Assembly (NCBI GenBank): GCA_040901445.1
Contig: JBBDYQ010000002.1
Location: 248,001 to 312,000, forward strand
From: Thermoleophilaceae bacterium
Lineage (GTDB): Bacteria; Actinomycetota; Thermoleophilia; Solirubrobacterales; Thermoleophilaceae
Direction of reading: 5' to 3'
DNA length: 64,000 nt
The stretch's first letter is position 1; every line of letters begins with the position of its first letter. Below the pieces are notes generated by a model, which saw only the letters and a program-made list of their open reading frames with translations, searched no databases and was not told the origin of the DNA. This document shows, piece by piece, positions 5,791 through 47,007 of the stretch. Both the position numbers and the translations under genes were made by a program.

Positions 5791-6227
5791 AGGTGGAGCG
5801 CGACATCGAGATCGACGCCGCGCCCGAGCGGGTGTACGAGGTGCTGATGGACCCGCGGCGCCTGGAGGATTGGGTGACCATCCACGCGGAGCTGAAGGCC
5901 GCGCCCCCGGGCGAGCTGTCGCAGGGCTCGGAGCTCAGCCAGTGCCTCAAGCTCGCCGGTCGCAAGTTCACCGTCCACTGGGAGGTGGTGGAGGACGACT
6001 GCCCCCGCCGCGTGGTCTGGGAGGGCCGCGGGCCGGTGGGCTCGAAGGCGCGCGTGGTGTACGAGCTCGAGCCCGGCGGCAACGGCAAGACGCGCTTCAC
6101 CTACGCCAACGAGTTCTCACTCCCCGGGGGCGCTCTGGGCAAGCTCGGGGGGCGCGCGGTGGCGCCCACCTCGCGGCGCGAGAGCGAGCGCTCGCTCGCG
6201 AAGCTCAAGAAGCTGCTGGAGCTCTAG
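5787..6227 (+). CDS. SRPBCC (START-like) family protein
   Basis: A 146-residue protein with the START/Bet v1-like fold pattern. It opens with the family's typical first strand (VERDIEIDAAPERVYEVLMD), then shows alternating strands and a C-terminal amphipathic helix ending KLKKLLEL. Proteins of this fold bind hydrophobic ligands or act as polyketide cyclases/aromatases; the ligand is unknown. It begins inside the stop codon of the upstream epimerase-like gene, so the pair probably forms a two-gene operon acting on the same metabolite. Transcription likely ends at the hairpin at 6245-6289. Confidence 0.85.
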   Translation: MKVERDIEIDAAPERVYEVLMDPRRLEDWVTIHAELKAAPPGELSQGSELSQCLKLAGRKFTVHWEVVEDDCPRRVVWEGRGPVGSKARVVYELEPGGNGKTRFTYANEFSLPGGALGKLGGRAVAPTSRRESERSLAKLKKLLEL

Positions 6228-6244
6228 AGCCCCCGAAGCGCGTC

Positions 6245-6289
6245 GAACGTCCCGCGCACCCCCGTTTGAAGGGGGGTTCCGGGACGTTC
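6245..6289. terminator. Long hairpin between convergent genes
   Basis: Perfect 10-base arms GAACGTCCCG (6245-6254) and CGGGACGTTC (6280-6289) enclose a second hairpin formed by ACCCCC and GGGGGGT around a GTTTGA loop. It lies exactly between the convergent ends at 6227 and 6294, so a bidirectional terminator is likely. No U-tract follows on either strand. Confidence 0.7.
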
Positions 6290-6293
6290 ATCG

Positions 6294-6692
6294 TCACAGG
6301 AGCTCGGTTATGCCCCGCGCGCCTATGCGGGCGAGGGTGGGCACGAAGTAACCGGCCTCGCGGACGCAGGCCAGGCACTCGAGCGCCGCTCCCCGGTCGA
6401 GCACGACGGCGTCCACGACCGGGCCCACTCCGTCGCCCGCCGCCCCGATCACGCGGCCCCGCGGGAAGAGCGTGTCGTGCAGCACGGCGCCGCACGTCTC
6501 GGCGTCACCGGTCACCACCACCACCGCCGCGGGCGCGCTCTGGGCGATCTCGGCAGAGGCGTGGCCGTCCGTCACCACGACCACGTGGGAGCCGCCCAGC
6601 TCGTGCACGCTCTCCACCACATCGGCGTAGTCACGTTCGGCAATCATCCGTGCAGCCTCATGTGCACCGATTACAGTTACCCTTCTACGCAT
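6294..6692 (-). CDS. Miniature malate/lactate-dehydrogenase-like pseudoenzyme
   Basis: A 132-residue protein that aligns by eye along the length of an LDH-like malate dehydrogenase but is less than half its size. The first strand (MRRRVTVIGA), the FPRxRVIGxAG segment and the closing GITELL peptide are recognisable. The NAD loop GAGxVG is replaced by GAHEAA. The substrate-binding Arg loop, the Asn of the NNP/TNP loop and the catalytic His of the GGHGD loop are all absent. It therefore cannot be a normal dehydrogenase. ATG at 6692 follows GAAAGTGA, a weak SD. It diverges from a winged-helix gene 29 bases away. Known family: LDH/MDH. Inference: a decayed or repurposed paralogue. Confidence 0.7.
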   Translation of the reverse strand: MRRRVTVIGAHEAARMIAERDYADVVESVHELGGSHVVVVTDGHASAEIAQSAPAAVVVVTGDAETCGAVLHDTLFPRGRVIGAAGDGVGPVVDAVVLDRGAALECLACVREAGYFVPTLARIGARGITELL

Positions 6693-6721
6693 AGTTCACT
6701 TTCAACTGTTCAGGAGTGCAC

Positions 6722-7081
6722 ATGGCGAACTTCCTCGCCGAGAAGCGCGCGGAGATCGACAGCCGGCTGAAGGAGCTTCGGCCACTGTATGAGGAGTATC
6801 TGATGTTGGAGCGCGCAAAGGAAGCGCTTGCCGGCGTGGACGGCGCCCCGCGCGCCCGCCGCGGAGGCGGCGGAAAAGGTGGCGGCCGGCGCCGGCGCGG
6901 TCGCCGGGGCGGCACCCAGGACGCGGTTCTCGCCCATCTGCGCCAGCACCCCGGCGCCTCGGTGCGCGAGATCGCCGACGCCCTCGGCATGAAGCACCCC
7001 AACTACCTCTACCGGGTGCTGCCGAGCCTGCAGGAGCAGGGCGCGGTCAAGAAGCAGGGCAAGGGCTGGGCCGCCGCCTGA
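6722..7081 (+). CDS. Winged-helix protein with Gly/Arg linker
   Basis: A 119-residue three-part protein. Residues 1-40 form a charged, probably coiled-coil helix (EKRAEIDSRLKELRPLYEEY). Residues 45-65 form a Gly/Arg-rich flexible linker. Residues 65-119 look like a winged helix-turn-helix, with ASVREIADALGM as the recognition region. This layout suits a small regulator or a nucleoid-associated DNA-binding protein. ATG at 6722 has a good SD (AGGAG, about five bases upstream). It is divergent from the miniature MDH gene, with both starts within 30 bases, so it may regulate that gene. Its target is not known. Confidence 0.75.
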   Translation: MANFLAEKRAEIDSRLKELRPLYEEYLMLERAKEALAGVDGAPRARRGGGGKGGGRRRRGRRGGTQDAVLAHLRQHPGASVREIADALGMKHPNYLYRVLPSLQEQGAVKKQGKGWAAA

Positions 7082-7086
7082 CGCAC

Positions 7087-9155
<2,069 letters not shown>

Positions 9156-42138: not shown

Positions 42139-42921
42139 TCAGCCGCGCGAGCGCCGGCGGCGCACGCCCGCCGTGCGCGACGGCGCACCACGCTCCAGGC
42201 GCGCAACCTCGCGACCCACCTCGTGGTCGATCGCGTCGTTCATCGCCAGTCCGAACATGGCCACCAGCGACTCCCCGGCCAGCGGGCGCAGGCGTTCCAG
42301 CGCGGAGCGCACCTCCGGCCAGCGCTCCTCCGGTGAGCCGTCCGCCTCGAACGGCTTCCACACGTGCTCGAGGAAGAGCTTGGCGTACACGTGCGCGACG
42401 CGGTCGGCGTGCTTGCGCAGCTCGGCCGCGAGGTCGAGCGCCTGCTCCTGGGAGAGCCCGAGCGCGGTGAGCTCATCCGCGGCGTGCTGGAGGCGGGGGC
42501 TGGCGATCTCGAAGGTGCCGTCGGTGAGCGGACGCAGCAGCCCCAGCTTCACGGAGCGGTCGAGCATGGCGGGATCGACGTCCTTCCAGCGCTGCGCGAG
42601 CTCCTCCGCGGTCACGATCTCGGGGGCCTCGTCCTCGAACGGCTCCCGCAGCACCCGCGTGAAGCGCAGGATCTCGGCGCTCGAGCCGTTCGCCCGCTCG
42701 ATCAGCCGCCTGATGGCCTCGAGCGTGAAGCCCTCGTCCTGGAGCTCGCGGATGAGCTGGATGCGGGCCACGTGCTCGGCGCCGTAGTAGCCGGTCCGGC
42801 CGCGCATCTCAGGCGGCGGCAGCAGCCCGCGCGACTGGTGCGCGCGGATGTTGCGCGCCGTCATGCCGGTGCGGTGCGCGATCTCGTCGATCGTCAGGTC
42901 GTCGTTTGTGACGTCGCTCAC
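42139..42921 (-). CDS. MerR-family regulator of the adjacent membrane protein
   Basis: A 260-residue regulator. The winged helix is N-terminal (IDEIAHRTGMTARNIRAHQSRGLLPPPEMRGRTGYYG, partly quoted). A 150-residue C-terminal ligand-like domain follows, larger than in metal-sensing MerR proteins and with no Cys pair. GTG at 42921 is leaderless, with TAGGAT six bases upstream. A near-perfect palindrome sits in the divergent promoter and covers the expected -35 of this gene, so self-control and control of the membrane-protein gene are both likely. Confidence 0.9.
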   Translation of the reverse strand: MSDVTNDDLTIDEIAHRTGMTARNIRAHQSRGLLPPPEMRGRTGYYGAEHVARIQLIRELQDEGFTLEAIRRLIERANGSSAEILRFTRVLREPFEDEAPEIVTAEELAQRWKDVDPAMLDRSVKLGLLRPLTDGTFEIASPRLQHAADELTALGLSQEQALDLAAELRKHADRVAHVYAKLFLEHVWKPFEADGSPEERWPEVRSALERLRPLAGESLVAMFGLAMNDAIDHEVGREVARLERGAPSRTAGVRRRRSRG

Positions 42922-42927
42922 GGGGTA

Positions 42928-42966
42928 ATCCTAACATCTTGATTGTTACATCGATCGGTGTAACAT
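42928..42966. promoter_or_regulatory. Divergent promoter with MerR-type operator
   Basis: Plus strand: -35-like TTGATT (42939-42944), a 16-base spacer, then -10 TAACAT (42961-42966). A 20-base palindrome (GTTACA ... TGTAAC, 42945-42964, one imperfect central base pair) fills the spacer, the classic place for MerR operators. Minus strand: TAGGAT (42928-42933) is the -10 of the regulator gene. Confidence 0.65.
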
Positions 42967-42997
42967 GCGCCGTGCAATCGACTTTGGAGAACCCTCG

Positions 42998-44932
42998 ATG
43001 ATGCGCCCACGACGACTTGTCACGCTGACCGCCGCCCTCGGCGGGTCCCTCGTGTCCGCCACGGCAGCGGCCGGCCCGGCGCTCGCGGCGGTCGAGACCA
43101 AGCCCGCCGGCGGCGCCGCGCTCGACCAGGTGATCATCGCCACCGCCGGCGCCGTCATCGCCACCAGCGTGCTCATGTGGCTGGTCACCGCCCATCGTCG
43201 CCGCAGCGGGACCATCCTCGAGCGCACGGCGAACTTCGCGGCCCGCATCGGCCGGCTGCCGTCGTGGGCGGCGCTGCCCGCCGCCATCGCCGGAGGCGCG
43301 CTGCTGATCGCGCTGCTGGGGATGATGTGGGACATCGCCCTCCACGCCGGCGACGGGCGTGACGAGGGCCCGCTGGCCAACCCCGCGCACTACCTCATCC
43401 TCGTCGGCCTCTTCGGCGTCTTCGCCGCCGGGGTGCTGGCCATGACGCTGCCGAAGGGCGAGCGCCCCGGCAGGGCCGCCGTCAAGCTCGGCAAGGACTG
43501 GTACGCGCCGGTCGGCGGCGTGCTGATGGCGGCCGCGGGCGGGTTCGCGCTGCTCGGCTTCCCGCTCGACGACGTGTGGCACCGCATGTTCGGCCAGGAC
43601 GTCACGCTCTGGGGCCCCACCCATCTCATGCTCATCGGCGGCGCCGGAATGACGCTCGTCGGTCAGGCCATCCTGCTGGCCGAGGGCATGCGGGCGCAGG
43701 GACGCGACCGGAAGGCCGGGGACAGCGGCGACACCCCGCCGGTCGTGGTCATGCTCCGGCGCGTGGGGCTCATGGGAGGGCTGCTGCTCGGCCTGTCCAC
43801 CTTCCAGGCCGAGTTCGACTTCGGCGTGCCGCAGTTCCAGGCCATCTTCCACCCCATCCTCATCGCGCTCGCCGCGGGGATCGGGCTCGTGGCCGCGCGC
43901 ATCTGGATCGGGCGCGGCGGGGCCGTGGCCGCCGCCGCGTTCTTCCTCGTGATCCGCGCGGGCGTGGCCGTCATCGTCGGCCCGGTCCTCGGGGAGAGCA
44001 CGCCCTACTTCCCGCTCTACATCGGCGGAGCCGTGGCCATCGAGCTCGTGGCGCTCGCCATCGCCGCGCGCGAGCGGCCCTTGGCCTTCGGCGCGGCCGC
44101 CGGCGTGGCGCTCGGCACCGTCGGATTCGCCACGGAGTACGCGTGGACCCAGGTCTTCATGCCGATCGCCTGGAACGAGGCCCTGCTGCCCGGGGGCATG
44201 CTCCTCGCGCTCGCGGCCGCGGTCGCGGCCGGCCTGATCGGCGCGCTGCTGGGCTCGGGCCTGCGCGGCGAGCTCGCCCGGCCGGGAGTGGCGCGGCCGG
44301 TGTTCATCGGCTCGCTGCTGGTGATCGGCGCGCTCGTGGCCAATGGGCTCGTGACCACCGAGCCCGAGGGCCTGCGCGCGCAGGTGCAGCTGCAGGAGGT
44401 CGACGGCGACACCGAGCGCGACGTGCTTGCCACCGTGCGGGTGGACCCGCCGGACGCCGCCGAGGGCTCCCACTGGTTCAACGCGCTCGCGTGGGGCGGC
44501 GGCGGCAAGATCGTCGTGGACAAGCTCGAGCGAGTGGGCGAGGGCGTCTACCGCTCCACCGAGCCGCTGCCCGTGGGCGGCTCTTACAAGTCGGCGATCC
44601 GCCTGCACGACGGCCGCGCCATGCTCCTCGCACCCGTGTACGCACCGGAGGACCGGGCCCTGGATGCGCCGGAGATCCCGGCCACGGCGGGCTTCACGCG
44701 CCCCTTCGCGGACGAGACGCAGTTCCTTCAGCGCGAGCTCAAGGAGGACACTCCGGCCTGGCTCTGGACGGTGTCGTCGCTGGTGGTGCTCCTGATCTCC
44801 CTCGGCTTCGTCTGGACGCTGGCGTGGGGGGTGGCGCGCGTGTCGCGCCTCGACACCGCGCCGCCCGCCGGCCCTGGACGGCGCGAGCGCGCCGAGCCGG
44901 TGGCCACCGCCAGCCCGATCGGGGCGAGTTAG
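42998..44932 (+). CDS. Polytopic membrane protein with duplicated His/Asp motif
   Basis: A 644-residue protein with a cleavable-looking signal (1-30), about 12 hydrophobic segments, a 150-residue extracytoplasmic beta-rich domain (RAQVQLQEVDGD...YRSTEPLPVGGSYKSAIRLHDGRA, FixH/YtkA-like) and a final helix. Two membrane-proximal stretches repeat one pattern: MWDIALHAGDGRDEG...NPAHYLILVG and LDDVWHRMFGQDVTLWGPTHLMLIG. The paired His and Asp suggest a metal or heme site. I chose ATG 42998, which has GGAG seven bases upstream; 42965 would fall too close to the promoter. Regulated by the divergent MerR gene. Function unknown. Confidence 0.7.
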   Translation: MMRPRRLVTLTAALGGSLVSATAAAGPALAAVETKPAGGAALDQVIIATAGAVIATSVLMWLVTAHRRRSGTILERTANFAARIGRLPSWAALPAAIAGGALLIALLGMMWDIALHAGDGRDEGPLANPAHYLILVGLFGVFAAGVLAMTLPKGERPGRAAVKLGKDWYAPVGGVLMAAAGGFALLGFPLDDVWHRMFGQDVTLWGPTHLMLIGGAGMTLVGQAILLAEGMRAQGRDRKAGDSGDTPPVVVMLRRVGLMGGLLLGLSTFQAEFDFGVPQFQAIFHPILIALAAGIGLVAARIWIGRGGAVAAAAFFLVIRAGVAVIVGPVLGESTPYFPLYIGGAVAIELVALAIAARERPLAFGAAAGVALGTVGFATEYAWTQVFMPIAWNEALLPGGMLLALAAAVAAGLIGALLGSGLRGELARPGVARPVFIGSLLVIGALVANGLVTTEPEGLRAQVQLQEVDGDTERDVLATVRVDPPDAAEGSHWFNALAWGGGGKIVVDKLERVGEGVYRSTEPLPVGGSYKSAIRLHDGRAMLLAPVYAPEDRALDAPEIPATAGFTRPFADETQFLQRELKEDTPAWLWTVSSLVVLLISLGFVWTLAWGVARVSRLDTAPPAGPGRRERAEPVATASPIGAS

Positions 44933-44935
44933 CGC

Positions 44936-45778
44936 TCAGCCGTAGCTCGCGGCCAGGCCGGCGAAGGAGTCGAGCTCGCGTTCGACGTCGCCGGCCTCCG
45001 CGGGCGTGAGCCAGAAGACGGTGCGGTCGCCGCCGGCGCCCTCCAGCCGCTCGATCGCCGCGGGGTCCGCAGGGGCGCCGAAGAGCGTGACCGGGATGCG
45101 GCCGCGTCCGGCCTCCTCGCCGCGGCGCTGCAGCTTCTCGATGCGCCCGGCCAGGCGCTCCACGTCGTCGAAGCGGTTGGGCATCCAGGCGTCGCCGTAG
45201 GCCAGCACCCGGTCGAGCGCGCCCTTCCCCAACCCACCCACGAGCACGGGCGGATGCGGCCGCTGCACCGGCTTGGGCCACGACCAGAGCGGGCCGAAGT
45301 CCACCCGGCGGCCGTGGTAGGCGGCCTCGTCCTCGGTCCAGATGACCTTCATCGCCTCGATCCGCTCGCGCATCAGCCCGAAGCGCCGCGACGGGTCCGT
45401 GCCGTGGTTGCGCATCTCCTCGAGGTTCCAGCCGCCGCCCACGCCGAACAGGAAGCGGCCGCCCGAGAGCTGGTCCACGCTCGCCACCTCCTTCGCCGTG
45501 GTGATGGGGTCCCGCTCCACCACGAGGCAGATGCCGGTGCCCAGCAGCAGCCGCTCGGTGACCGCTGCCGCGGCGCCGAGCGCGACGAAGGGATCGAGCG
45601 TGTGGCTGTACTCGCGCGGCAGCTCGCGGCCGTCGAGGTAGGGCGTCTCGCGGCTCGCGGGGATGTGGGTGTGCTCCGGGAAGAAGAGCGACTCGAAGCC
45701 GCGCTCCTCCGCCATCCGCGCCAGCTGCGGCGGGCTCACTGCGTAGTCCGTGGGGAACATCGCGACGCCGAAGCGCAT
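44936..45778 (-). CDS. LLM-class F420-dependent oxidoreductase
   Basis: A 280-residue TIM-barrel enzyme of the bacterial-luciferase-like family. It starts directly with the first strand (MRFGVAMFPTDYAV) and carries GFESLFFPEHTHIP, LLGTGICLVVERDP and GRFLFGVGGGWNLEEMRNHG, the F420/FMN site. Actinobacterial members usually take hydride from coenzyme F420; the substrate is unknown. The gene is leaderless at ATG 45778 and ends three bases from the convergent membrane-protein gene. Confidence 0.9.
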   Translation of the reverse strand: MRFGVAMFPTDYAVSPPQLARMAEERGFESLFFPEHTHIPASRETPYLDGRELPREYSHTLDPFVALGAAAAVTERLLLGTGICLVVERDPITTAKEVASVDQLSGGRFLFGVGGGWNLEEMRNHGTDPSRRFGLMRERIEAMKVIWTEDEAAYHGRRVDFGPLWSWPKPVQRPHPPVLVGGLGKGALDRVLAYGDAWMPNRFDDVERLAGRIEKLQRRGEEAGRGRIPVTLFGAPADPAAIERLEGAGGDRTVFWLTPAEAGDVERELDSFAGLAASYG

Positions 45779-45786
45779 TGCCGGAA

Positions 45787-45792
45787 AGCCTA
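45787..45792 (-). promoter_or_regulatory. -10 element of the LLM oxidoreductase gene (leaderless)
   Basis: Minus-strand TAGGCT, eight bases, then ATG at 45778. Confidence 0.5.
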
Positions 45793-45876
45793 GCCGGCGT
45801 TCAAGTCCAGCGGCCCCCGGTCGATGATCTGGAGAGCGCGGTCGGCCCAGCACCCCGCAGACCGTCTGGACGAACG

Positions 45877-47007
45877 ATGAGGCTAATCGCCACGAGACGC
45901 CTGACGCCCGGAACCCGGCTCGGACGGGACATTCCGGCGAGCGGCGGCGGCACGGTGCCGCTCCTGCGAGCGGGCGTCGAGATCACCGCGCGCCACCGCG
46001 ACGCTCTCATCTCGGCCGGCATCAACGCCGTCTACGTGGACGACGAGCTGAGCCGCGGCATCAACGTCCCGCGCGCGCTCAGCGACGAGACGCGGCACGA
46101 GGCCCGCGTCGCCCTGGACCGCGCGATCGGCCAGGCCCGCCCCAAGCTCGACCGCCCGCTCCCGGACGAGAGCATGACCGATCTCCAGCGGGTGGCCGGC
46201 CTGATCGCCGCCGAGGTCGCGGGCTCGGGCGATGCCGCGCTGGCGCTCAGCGACCTCGCCGGCGCGGACGCCTACACGATGGAGCACTCGATCGACGTGA
46301 CCGTGGTCGGGCTCCTGATCGCGCGCAGGCTCTTCCGCGAGCGCGGCCGCGTGGACTTCCGCGGCGAGCGCGCGTTCGACCGCGTGGAGCACCACCTGAC
46401 GCAGCTCGGCGTGGGGCTGATGCTGCACGACATCGGCAAGCTGGCCATCCCGATCGACGTGCTCAACAAGCCGGGCGCCCTCGACCAGGAGGAATGGGAG
46501 CTCATGCGCCGGCACCCGCTCACCGGGGTGGAGATGCTGCCCGGCTCCGCCATCGGCGCGCGGGCGAAGAGCGTGGTGCGCTCCCACCACGAGCGCTGGG
46601 ACGGCGCCGGCTACCCGGACGGCATCGCGGGCGAGGCGATCTCGCAGTTCGCGCGGATCGCGAGCGTGGCCGACGTCTTCGACGCGGTGACCAGCGAGCG
46701 CCCGTACGCGCGCGCGGCGGTCCAGAACGTGGGCGTGTCGATCATCCGCTCGGGCTCGGGCGCGGCCTTCGACCCCGAGGTCGTGGAGATCTTCCTCGAC
46801 GTGGTGCCGCCGTATCCGCCGGGCAGCGAGATCACGCTGAGCGACGGGCGCCGCGGCGTGGTCGTGTCCGCCGAGGCGGGACGCTTCGAGCTGCCGCTCG
46901 TGCGCGTGCACCACGATGCCGGCGGGCGGTCGGTCACGCCGTACGAGGTCGACCTGGTCGAGCACCCGGAGCTCACCCCGGGGCCGGGCGCACCTGCCGC
47001 AGCCTGA
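45877..47007 (+). CDS. HD-GYP domain protein (probable cyclic-di-GMP phosphodiesterase)
   Basis: A 376-residue protein. Residues 1-120 are a small N-terminal domain of the kind often preceding HD-GYP. The metal motif HDIGK is at residues 184-188, with the upstream His in MEHSIDVTVVG; HHERWDGAGYPDG near 236-248 is the GYP signature. The residues needed for c-di-GMP hydrolysis to pGpG or GMP appear intact. No GGDEF protein is in the window. ATG at 45877 has no SD. A 60-residue tail follows the catalytic domain. Confidence 0.9.
   Translation: MRLIATRRLTPGTRLGRDIPASGGGTVPLLRAGVEITARHRDALISAGINAVYVDDELSRGINVPRALSDETRHEARVALDRAIGQARPKLDRPLPDESMTDLQRVAGLIAAEVAGSGDAALALSDLAGADAYTMEHSIDVTVVGLLIARRLFRERGRVDFRGERAFDRVEHHLTQLGVGLMLHDIGKLAIPIDVLNKPGALDQEEWELMRRHPLTGVEMLPGSAIGARAKSVVRSHHERWDGAGYPDGIAGEAISQFARIASVADVFDAVTSERPYARAAVQNVGVSIIRSGSGAAFDPEVVEIFLDVVPPYPPGSEITLSDGRRGVVVSAEAGRFELPLVRVHHDAGGRSVTPYEVDLVEHPELTPGPGAPAAA

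Follow-up and report, generated by a model that had tools for sequence, protein, structure and literature searches.

Copper membrane monooxygenases (CuMMOs), as published, are encoded by three genes and built from three subunits (PMC6215863). In particulate methane monooxygenase (pMMO), the Cu(C) site consists of D156, H160 and H173 with R165 in the second sphere, and the Cu(D) site of N227, H231 and H245; the copper sites of this enzyme are still disputed, and this applies also to Cu(D), its putative active site (PMC12576850). Here we analyzed a 64,000-nucleotide stretch of DNA (the window) from a Thermoleophilaceae bacterium (contig JBBDYQ010000002.1, positions 248,001 to 312,000), in which a gene for a 643-residue membrane protein and a gene for a MerR-family regulator are divergently oriented and have in common an inverted repeat embedded in the promoter. 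Our analysis suggests, with a probability of roughly 60%, that the membrane protein is related to the CuMMOs (pMMO, ammonia monooxygenase (AMO) and hydrocarbon monooxygenase (HMO)) as a deeply divergent form made of one polypeptide, and that it probably oxidizes its substrate with copper and O2.

An earlier note on this DNA had pointed to two D-x3-H...(R/Q)D...P-x-H motifs in the membrane protein. Both are present and are invariant in all 70 aligned homologs: D111, H115, R120, D121, H130, D190, H194, D200 and H208 are each found in 70/70 sequences. Conservation of the His and Asp residues had been set beforehand as one half of the test that could refute the idea, and it was complete (70/70). 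The parts of the protein are as follows.

43001..44932, + strand: single-chain CuMMO-like membrane protein, 643 residues (start at ATG 42998 or 43001)
43109..43735, + strand: PmoC/AmoC-like N-terminal domain, residues 37-245 (fold and profile matches)
43331..43390, + strand: repeat 1, Cu(C)-like, D111-x3-H115-x4-R120-D121-...-P-x-H130 (70/70 conserved)
43568..43624, + strand: repeat 2, Cu(D)-like, D190-x3-H194-x11-P206-T-H208 (70/70 conserved)
43736..44269, + strand: PmoA/AmoA-like membrane region, residues 246-423 (Z 13.9-14.4 to PmoA/AmoA chains, sequence support lacking)
44363..44710, + strand: predicted extracytoplasmic beta-sandwich, residues 455-570, without conserved His, Met or Cys (predicted structure, alignment)
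44756..44857, + strand: predicted C-terminal transmembrane helix, residues 586-619 (predicted structure)

In the first repeat, D111, H115 and H130 occupy the Cu(C) positions, and R120 has the +9 spacing of R165. In the second, D190, H194 and H208 have the spacing (+4/+18) of N227, H231 and H245; both histidines are invariant, and the position of the Cu(D) Asn is taken in the family by the invariant Asp190. The repeated motifs thus probably represent a pair of copper sites within a domain of the PmoC/AmoC type, with copper assigned by analogy to pMMO. The same fold might hold Fe or Zn and serve a membrane hydroxylase, desaturase or hydrolase, given that a set of two Asp and four His ligands would suit these metals as well, that Asp is a harder ligand than the Asn227 it replaces and that CuB is lost. 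We consider this quite unlikely, as the homolog whose metal is known is the pMMO copper site and as cupredoxin and CopC genes occur among the neighbors of the family (see below). A haem site, which the earlier note had also considered, was rejected, since each of the four invariant histidines is part of a PmoC-like motif; its broader idea of an inducible, probably metal-binding membrane protein otherwise held, with a MerR-type operator and conserved His and Asp residues. No conserved Cys was found in the 70-sequence alignment.

The relationship to PmoC was also seen at the level of sequence profiles. PmoC reference sequences, taken from public plasmids, carry D-x3-H-x4-RD-..-FTPSH and N-x3-H-..-P-x-H (PmoC segment QDASWHQVVIRDTAFTPSH). 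Within the family, homology and the pattern WDxxWHxxxGRD revealed a divergent actinobacterial branch, which has WDVAWHIDLGRDxxLFTPSH at the corresponding place (segment WDVAWHIDLGRDVVLFTPSH). When this branch was aligned to PmoC with hhalign, an E-value of 2.8e-4 was obtained, and the ligands of Cu(C) and of Cu(D) were in register; the score was 34.9, which 0/300 shuffles reached (the best of them scored 25.1). The first hhalign comparison of the main branch with PmoC was not significant (E 0.093), and the main-branch profile of 70 sequences gave P 0.039, a value reached by 1/100 shuffles and suggestive at most. In a set of 7,834 frames, the first non-family matches of a hidden Markov model (HMM) of the family were four PmoCs, at modest E-values of 2e-4 to 0.09; reciprocally, below the PmoCs themselves, all listed matches of a PmoC HMM were family loci (E 0.026 upward). 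A two-site motif, which was written after the family had been seen, matched the family (95) and PmoC (6) and nothing else among 5,829 frames. Sequence searches of the PDB with the membrane protein gave nothing useful, and tblastn with the AmoC motif found no match in phages. Orphan amoC/pmoC genes were observed on Methylocystis and Nitrosomonas plasmids (L066, 4117-4890; L067, 4096-4911; L072, 4117-4890), with no annotated xmoA or xmoB alongside and with hypothetical genes downstream.

Structure predictions, which used 26-27 sequences, gave a full-length model with a predicted local distance difference test score (pLDDT) of 84.9 and a predicted template modeling score of 0.86; the N-terminal domain folded alone had a pLDDT of 85. 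The five best PDB matches of this domain were all PmoC/AmoC chains (7s4h_C, 9cl2, 7s4m, 9cl6_C and 7yzy_C, Z 10.1-10.5), the best being 7s4h_C (Z 10.5, 183 residues aligned at 4.4 A, with residues 1-207 of the model on 83-280 of the chain), and Foldseek matched the domain to 7yzy_C with a probability of 0.99. Residues 246-423 matched PmoA/AmoA chains, including 3rfr_B (Z 14.4) and 9cl6_B (Z 14.3, 2.8 A over 168 residues). Thus, the N-terminal third is homologous to PmoC/AmoC; the middle third is predicted to have the fold of subunit A, and the C-terminal third might be equivalent to subunit B by its position. The protein would then be a single-chain C-A, and perhaps C-A-B, arrangement whose order mirrors xmoCAB. 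It could be argued that an independent metal- or haem-binding membrane protein came to resemble PmoC and PmoA by convergence, since Z-scores of helical bundles are ambiguous by themselves and the main-branch profile matched PmoC weakly (P 0.039). However, convergence would have to produce likeness to two subunits (C and A) of the same enzyme independently and in operon order; it also does not fit the reciprocal ranking of the family and PmoC, the E 2.8e-4 alignment in register over both sites, or conserved residues that match copper ligands with no haem motif noted. We regard it as very improbable.

Several observations weigh against the CuMMO-like reading. Designed helical bundles reached Z 10.0 against the N-terminal domain; therefore, its fold match is supportive and not decisive alone. 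An S-component of energy-coupling factor transporters matched the middle region with Z 14.5, at 4.5 A, and no convincing sequence similarity of this region to PmoA was detected: a main-branch comparison (P 0.021, 0/100 shuffles) was discounted, as the divergent branch gave E 0.54. The C-terminal domain showed no signal against a PmoB profile, with a score equal to those of shuffles (26/100). The CuB histidine ligands are absent: across the 70 aligned sequences, the C-terminal third has no His that is conserved; verrucomicrobial pMMO also lacks the CuB site (PMC6215863). The Pfam AmoC model had no match at E 1 in 43 family members (and none in the host genome), and most loci of the family have no catabolic neighbor. 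In addition, a single 643-residue open reading frame (ORF) is found in place of separate xmoC, xmoA and xmoB genes. Because it is encoded by one gene, lacks CuB and is missed by the AmoC model, the protein is a CuMMO-like single-chain relative and not a canonical CuMMO.

Positively charged residues are concentrated on the inner side: 15 Lys/Arg in 83 inner-loop residues and 1 in 50 outer-loop residues, a count that leaves out the beta-domain loop. On this basis, both motifs and the beta domain are predicted to face outside. For the C-terminal domain, which the earlier note had described as FixH-like, FixH (best E 0.39) and YtkA (best E 0.021) matches in Pfam were below significance and limited to 2/43 members each. 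It is predicted to form a beta-sandwich on the outer face, resembling the copper-resistance determinant CrdA (Z 6.7), and PmoB was absent among the structural matches listed.

If the protein is a CuMMO relative, its PmoC-like first third would hold two Asp/His/His metal sites at the outer side of the membrane, which would correspond to Cu(C) and Cu(D). The middle third would stand in for PmoA, and the beta-sandwich between the last two helices for PmoB, with CuB lost or never present. We infer copper as the metal, catalysis, O2 activation and an organic substrate; the protein would most likely bind copper and oxidize a small hydrophobic compound with O2. Thus, given its kinship with PmoC and the presence of the copper-binding residues in all copies that were examined, the family may represent an undescribed oxygen-activating enzyme.

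The genome neighborhoods, whose survey the earlier note had proposed, contained flavin monooxygenases, alpha/beta-hydrolases, acyl-CoA dehydrogenases, cupredoxins and one CopC. An FAD monooxygenase of the flavin-containing monooxygenase (FMO) type adjoins the family gene, or is separated from it by one small gene, in five loci (L004, L111, L119, L109 and L124), and F-x-G-x3-H-x3-W, which is close to the Baeyer-Villiger fingerprint, occurs in 3/3 of those checked (L004, L111 and L119). Alpha/beta-hydrolases adjoin the family gene in L036, L038 and L042, and acyl-CoA dehydrogenases are found near L125, L042 and L100. Together, these neighbors resemble a set for hydroxylation, Baeyer-Villiger oxidation, ester cleavage and beta-oxidation, with no single locus holding all of them. 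In four loci (L096-L099; 9242-10953 in L096), the family gene is followed by a cupredoxin-like lipoprotein (in L097, PF13473 at E 1.7e-4, below the curated cut-off) and a membrane protein of 430-440 residues. The lipoprotein has a conserved DELHVHxxPEH-like motif, and the 430-440-residue protein has no Pfam match. On a Mycolicibacterium vanbaalenii JOB5 plasmid (L065), the family gene follows CopC in a region that resembles a copper island (with DUF305, a BlaI/CopY regulator and an assembly protein for cytochrome oxidase); relatives of the lipoprotein and the 430-440-residue protein lie 8-9 kb away.

Such copper-related neighbors, together with the resemblance of the beta domain to CrdA and the absence of CuB, would also fit a PmoC-fold protein that handles copper (resistance, storage or transmembrane transfer) and has no oxygenase activity. 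We consider this unlikely: no copper-homeostasis gene stood out among the immediate neighbors in Solirubrobacterales, the regulator is probably not a copper sensor of the CueR type (see below), the flavin monooxygenases, hydrolases and acyl-CoA dehydrogenases suggest catabolism, and the family retains the second-sphere Arg, which in pMMO lies close to the proposed active site. Neighborhoods vary, and as a whole they favor an oxidase or monooxygenase that depends on copper and acts on hydrophobic compounds. In a CuMMO-like pathway of this kind, the FMO/Baeyer-Villiger monooxygenase, the esterase-like alpha/beta-hydrolase or the acyl-CoA dehydrogenase of related loci would process the product, and the cupredoxin lipoprotein may supply electrons or copper.

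The systematic sampling of the family covered the phylum Actinomycetota. Homologs were detected in 36/61 relatives and in 20/149 genomes sampled across the phylum (17/140 genomes of good quality). Several genomes have two copies, including that of the window, whose second member (L004, G000:C22:43000-57000, 5999-8011) is 45% identical and has a divergent TetR gene and an overlapping downstream FAD monooxygenase in place of MerR. Another member (genome G029, contig C172) is split over several frames with an in-frame stop and is possibly a decaying gene or affected by assembly errors. The earlier view of a membrane protein without a described function was borne out, as no Pfam or NCBIfam model covers it, and we found no description of a single-chain CuMMO in the open-licence literature, which excludes most subscription journals. 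It is possible, at somewhat less than even odds, that the family is an unrecognized single-chain branch of the CuMMO superfamily, present in about 1/8 of sampled actinobacterial genomes, and an O2-activating copper enzyme without CuB that has its own induction and probably an organic substrate.

The regulatory region of the membrane protein gene includes the following features.

42139..42921, - strand: MerR-family regulator, 260 residues, without cysteine (PF13411 MerR_1, E 2e-21)
42939..42944, + strand: -35-like TTGATT (sequence)
42944..42966, + strand: operator TGTTACATCGATCGGTGTAACAT, spanning the spacer and running into the -10 element (0 expected; enriched at MerR-linked loci)
42961..42966, + strand: -10-like TAACAT (sequence)

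The 20-base palindrome noted earlier (GTTACATCGATCGGTGTAAC) lies exactly at 42945-42964. It was said to occupy the spacer between TTGATT and TAACAT; it does fill this 16-bp spacer, with its last four bases overlapping the -10 element. For the extended operator, TGTNACAT-N7-TGTAACAT, dinucleotide shuffling of the window gives an expectation of 0.00 occurrences. A MerR homolog lies divergently next to the family gene, or nearby, in 27/66 non-redundant family loci. Upstream of the membrane protein gene, TGTAACAT was found exactly in 10 of these 27 loci and with no more than one mismatch in 21, compared with 0 exact and 9 one-mismatch occurrences in the 39 loci without MerR (expectation from mononucleotide shuffles: 0.0008 exact, 0.022 with one mismatch). 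The operator is thus genuine, as the element recurs upstream of the membrane protein gene in MerR-linked relatives, and it is the predicted binding site of MerR. The first ATG of the ORF (42965) lies inside the -10 element and operator; therefore, the true start is probably ATG 42998 or 43001, behind an SD-like (Shine-Dalgarno) GGAG. In many relatives (e.g., L007, L048, L006, L023, L014, L028, L030 and L024) an ATG is located six bases after TAACAT, and so a leaderless transcript is probable in these organisms.

Like the activators CueR, SoxR and MerR, the regulator has a winged-helix helix-turn-helix domain and a spacer operator beside a divergent target. It differs from them in a long C-terminal effector region, in an operator that runs into the -10 element with a spacer of 16 bp, and in its lack of cysteine, which is shared by 24/26 MerR homologs. 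A thiolate metal sensor of the CueR/MerR/ZntR type was therefore rejected. We propose that this Cys-free MerR would act as an activator at TGTNACAT-N7-TGTAACAT in the promoter spacer and induce the membrane protein gene, with an organic ligand as the probable signal.

The window has a GC content of 72% and comes from a 3.5 Mb draft genome, with Thermoleophilaceae, Solirubrobacter and Conexibacter as named relatives. Downstream of the membrane protein gene and converging with it is a gene for an F420-dependent LLM (luciferase-like monooxygenase) oxidoreductase (44936-45853, TIGR03619), whose ORF overlaps the start of a gene for an HD-domain protein (45778-47007). Neither was seen conserved beside the membrane protein family.

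If the single-chain proteins are indeed O2-activating copper enzymes, Cu(C) and Cu(D) alone would suffice for catalysis. A natural one-chain homolog that retains the ligands of Cu(C) and Cu(D) and lacks CuB would offer a simpler system in which to ask which site activates O2, and a probable role in the oxidation of hydrocarbons or related compounds would be assigned to a large unannotated family of soil actinobacteria.

In comparison with the known subunits, the C-terminal part resembles PmoB/AmoB (PF04744) in that it comes last in the C-A-B order and is predicted to combine two transmembrane helices with an extracytoplasmic beta domain, whereas it has one beta domain and not two and no conserved His, hence no CuB. 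The middle part shares with PmoA/AmoA (PF02461) the predicted fold of residues 246-423 (Z about 14) and the position right after the C-like part, as in xmoCAB; unlike PmoA, it shows no reliable sequence similarity. The N-terminal part differs from PmoC in that it is fused into one chain of 600-700 residues, in the replacement of the Cu(D) Asn by Asp, in one to two extra residues ahead of the third ligand of site 1 and in being missed by the Pfam AmoC model. Yet it shares with PmoC/AmoC/HmoC (PF04896) the fold, both site motifs, including the Cu(D)-type [N/D]-x3-H...P-x-H with matching spacing, the second-sphere Arg and the predicted outward-facing sites.
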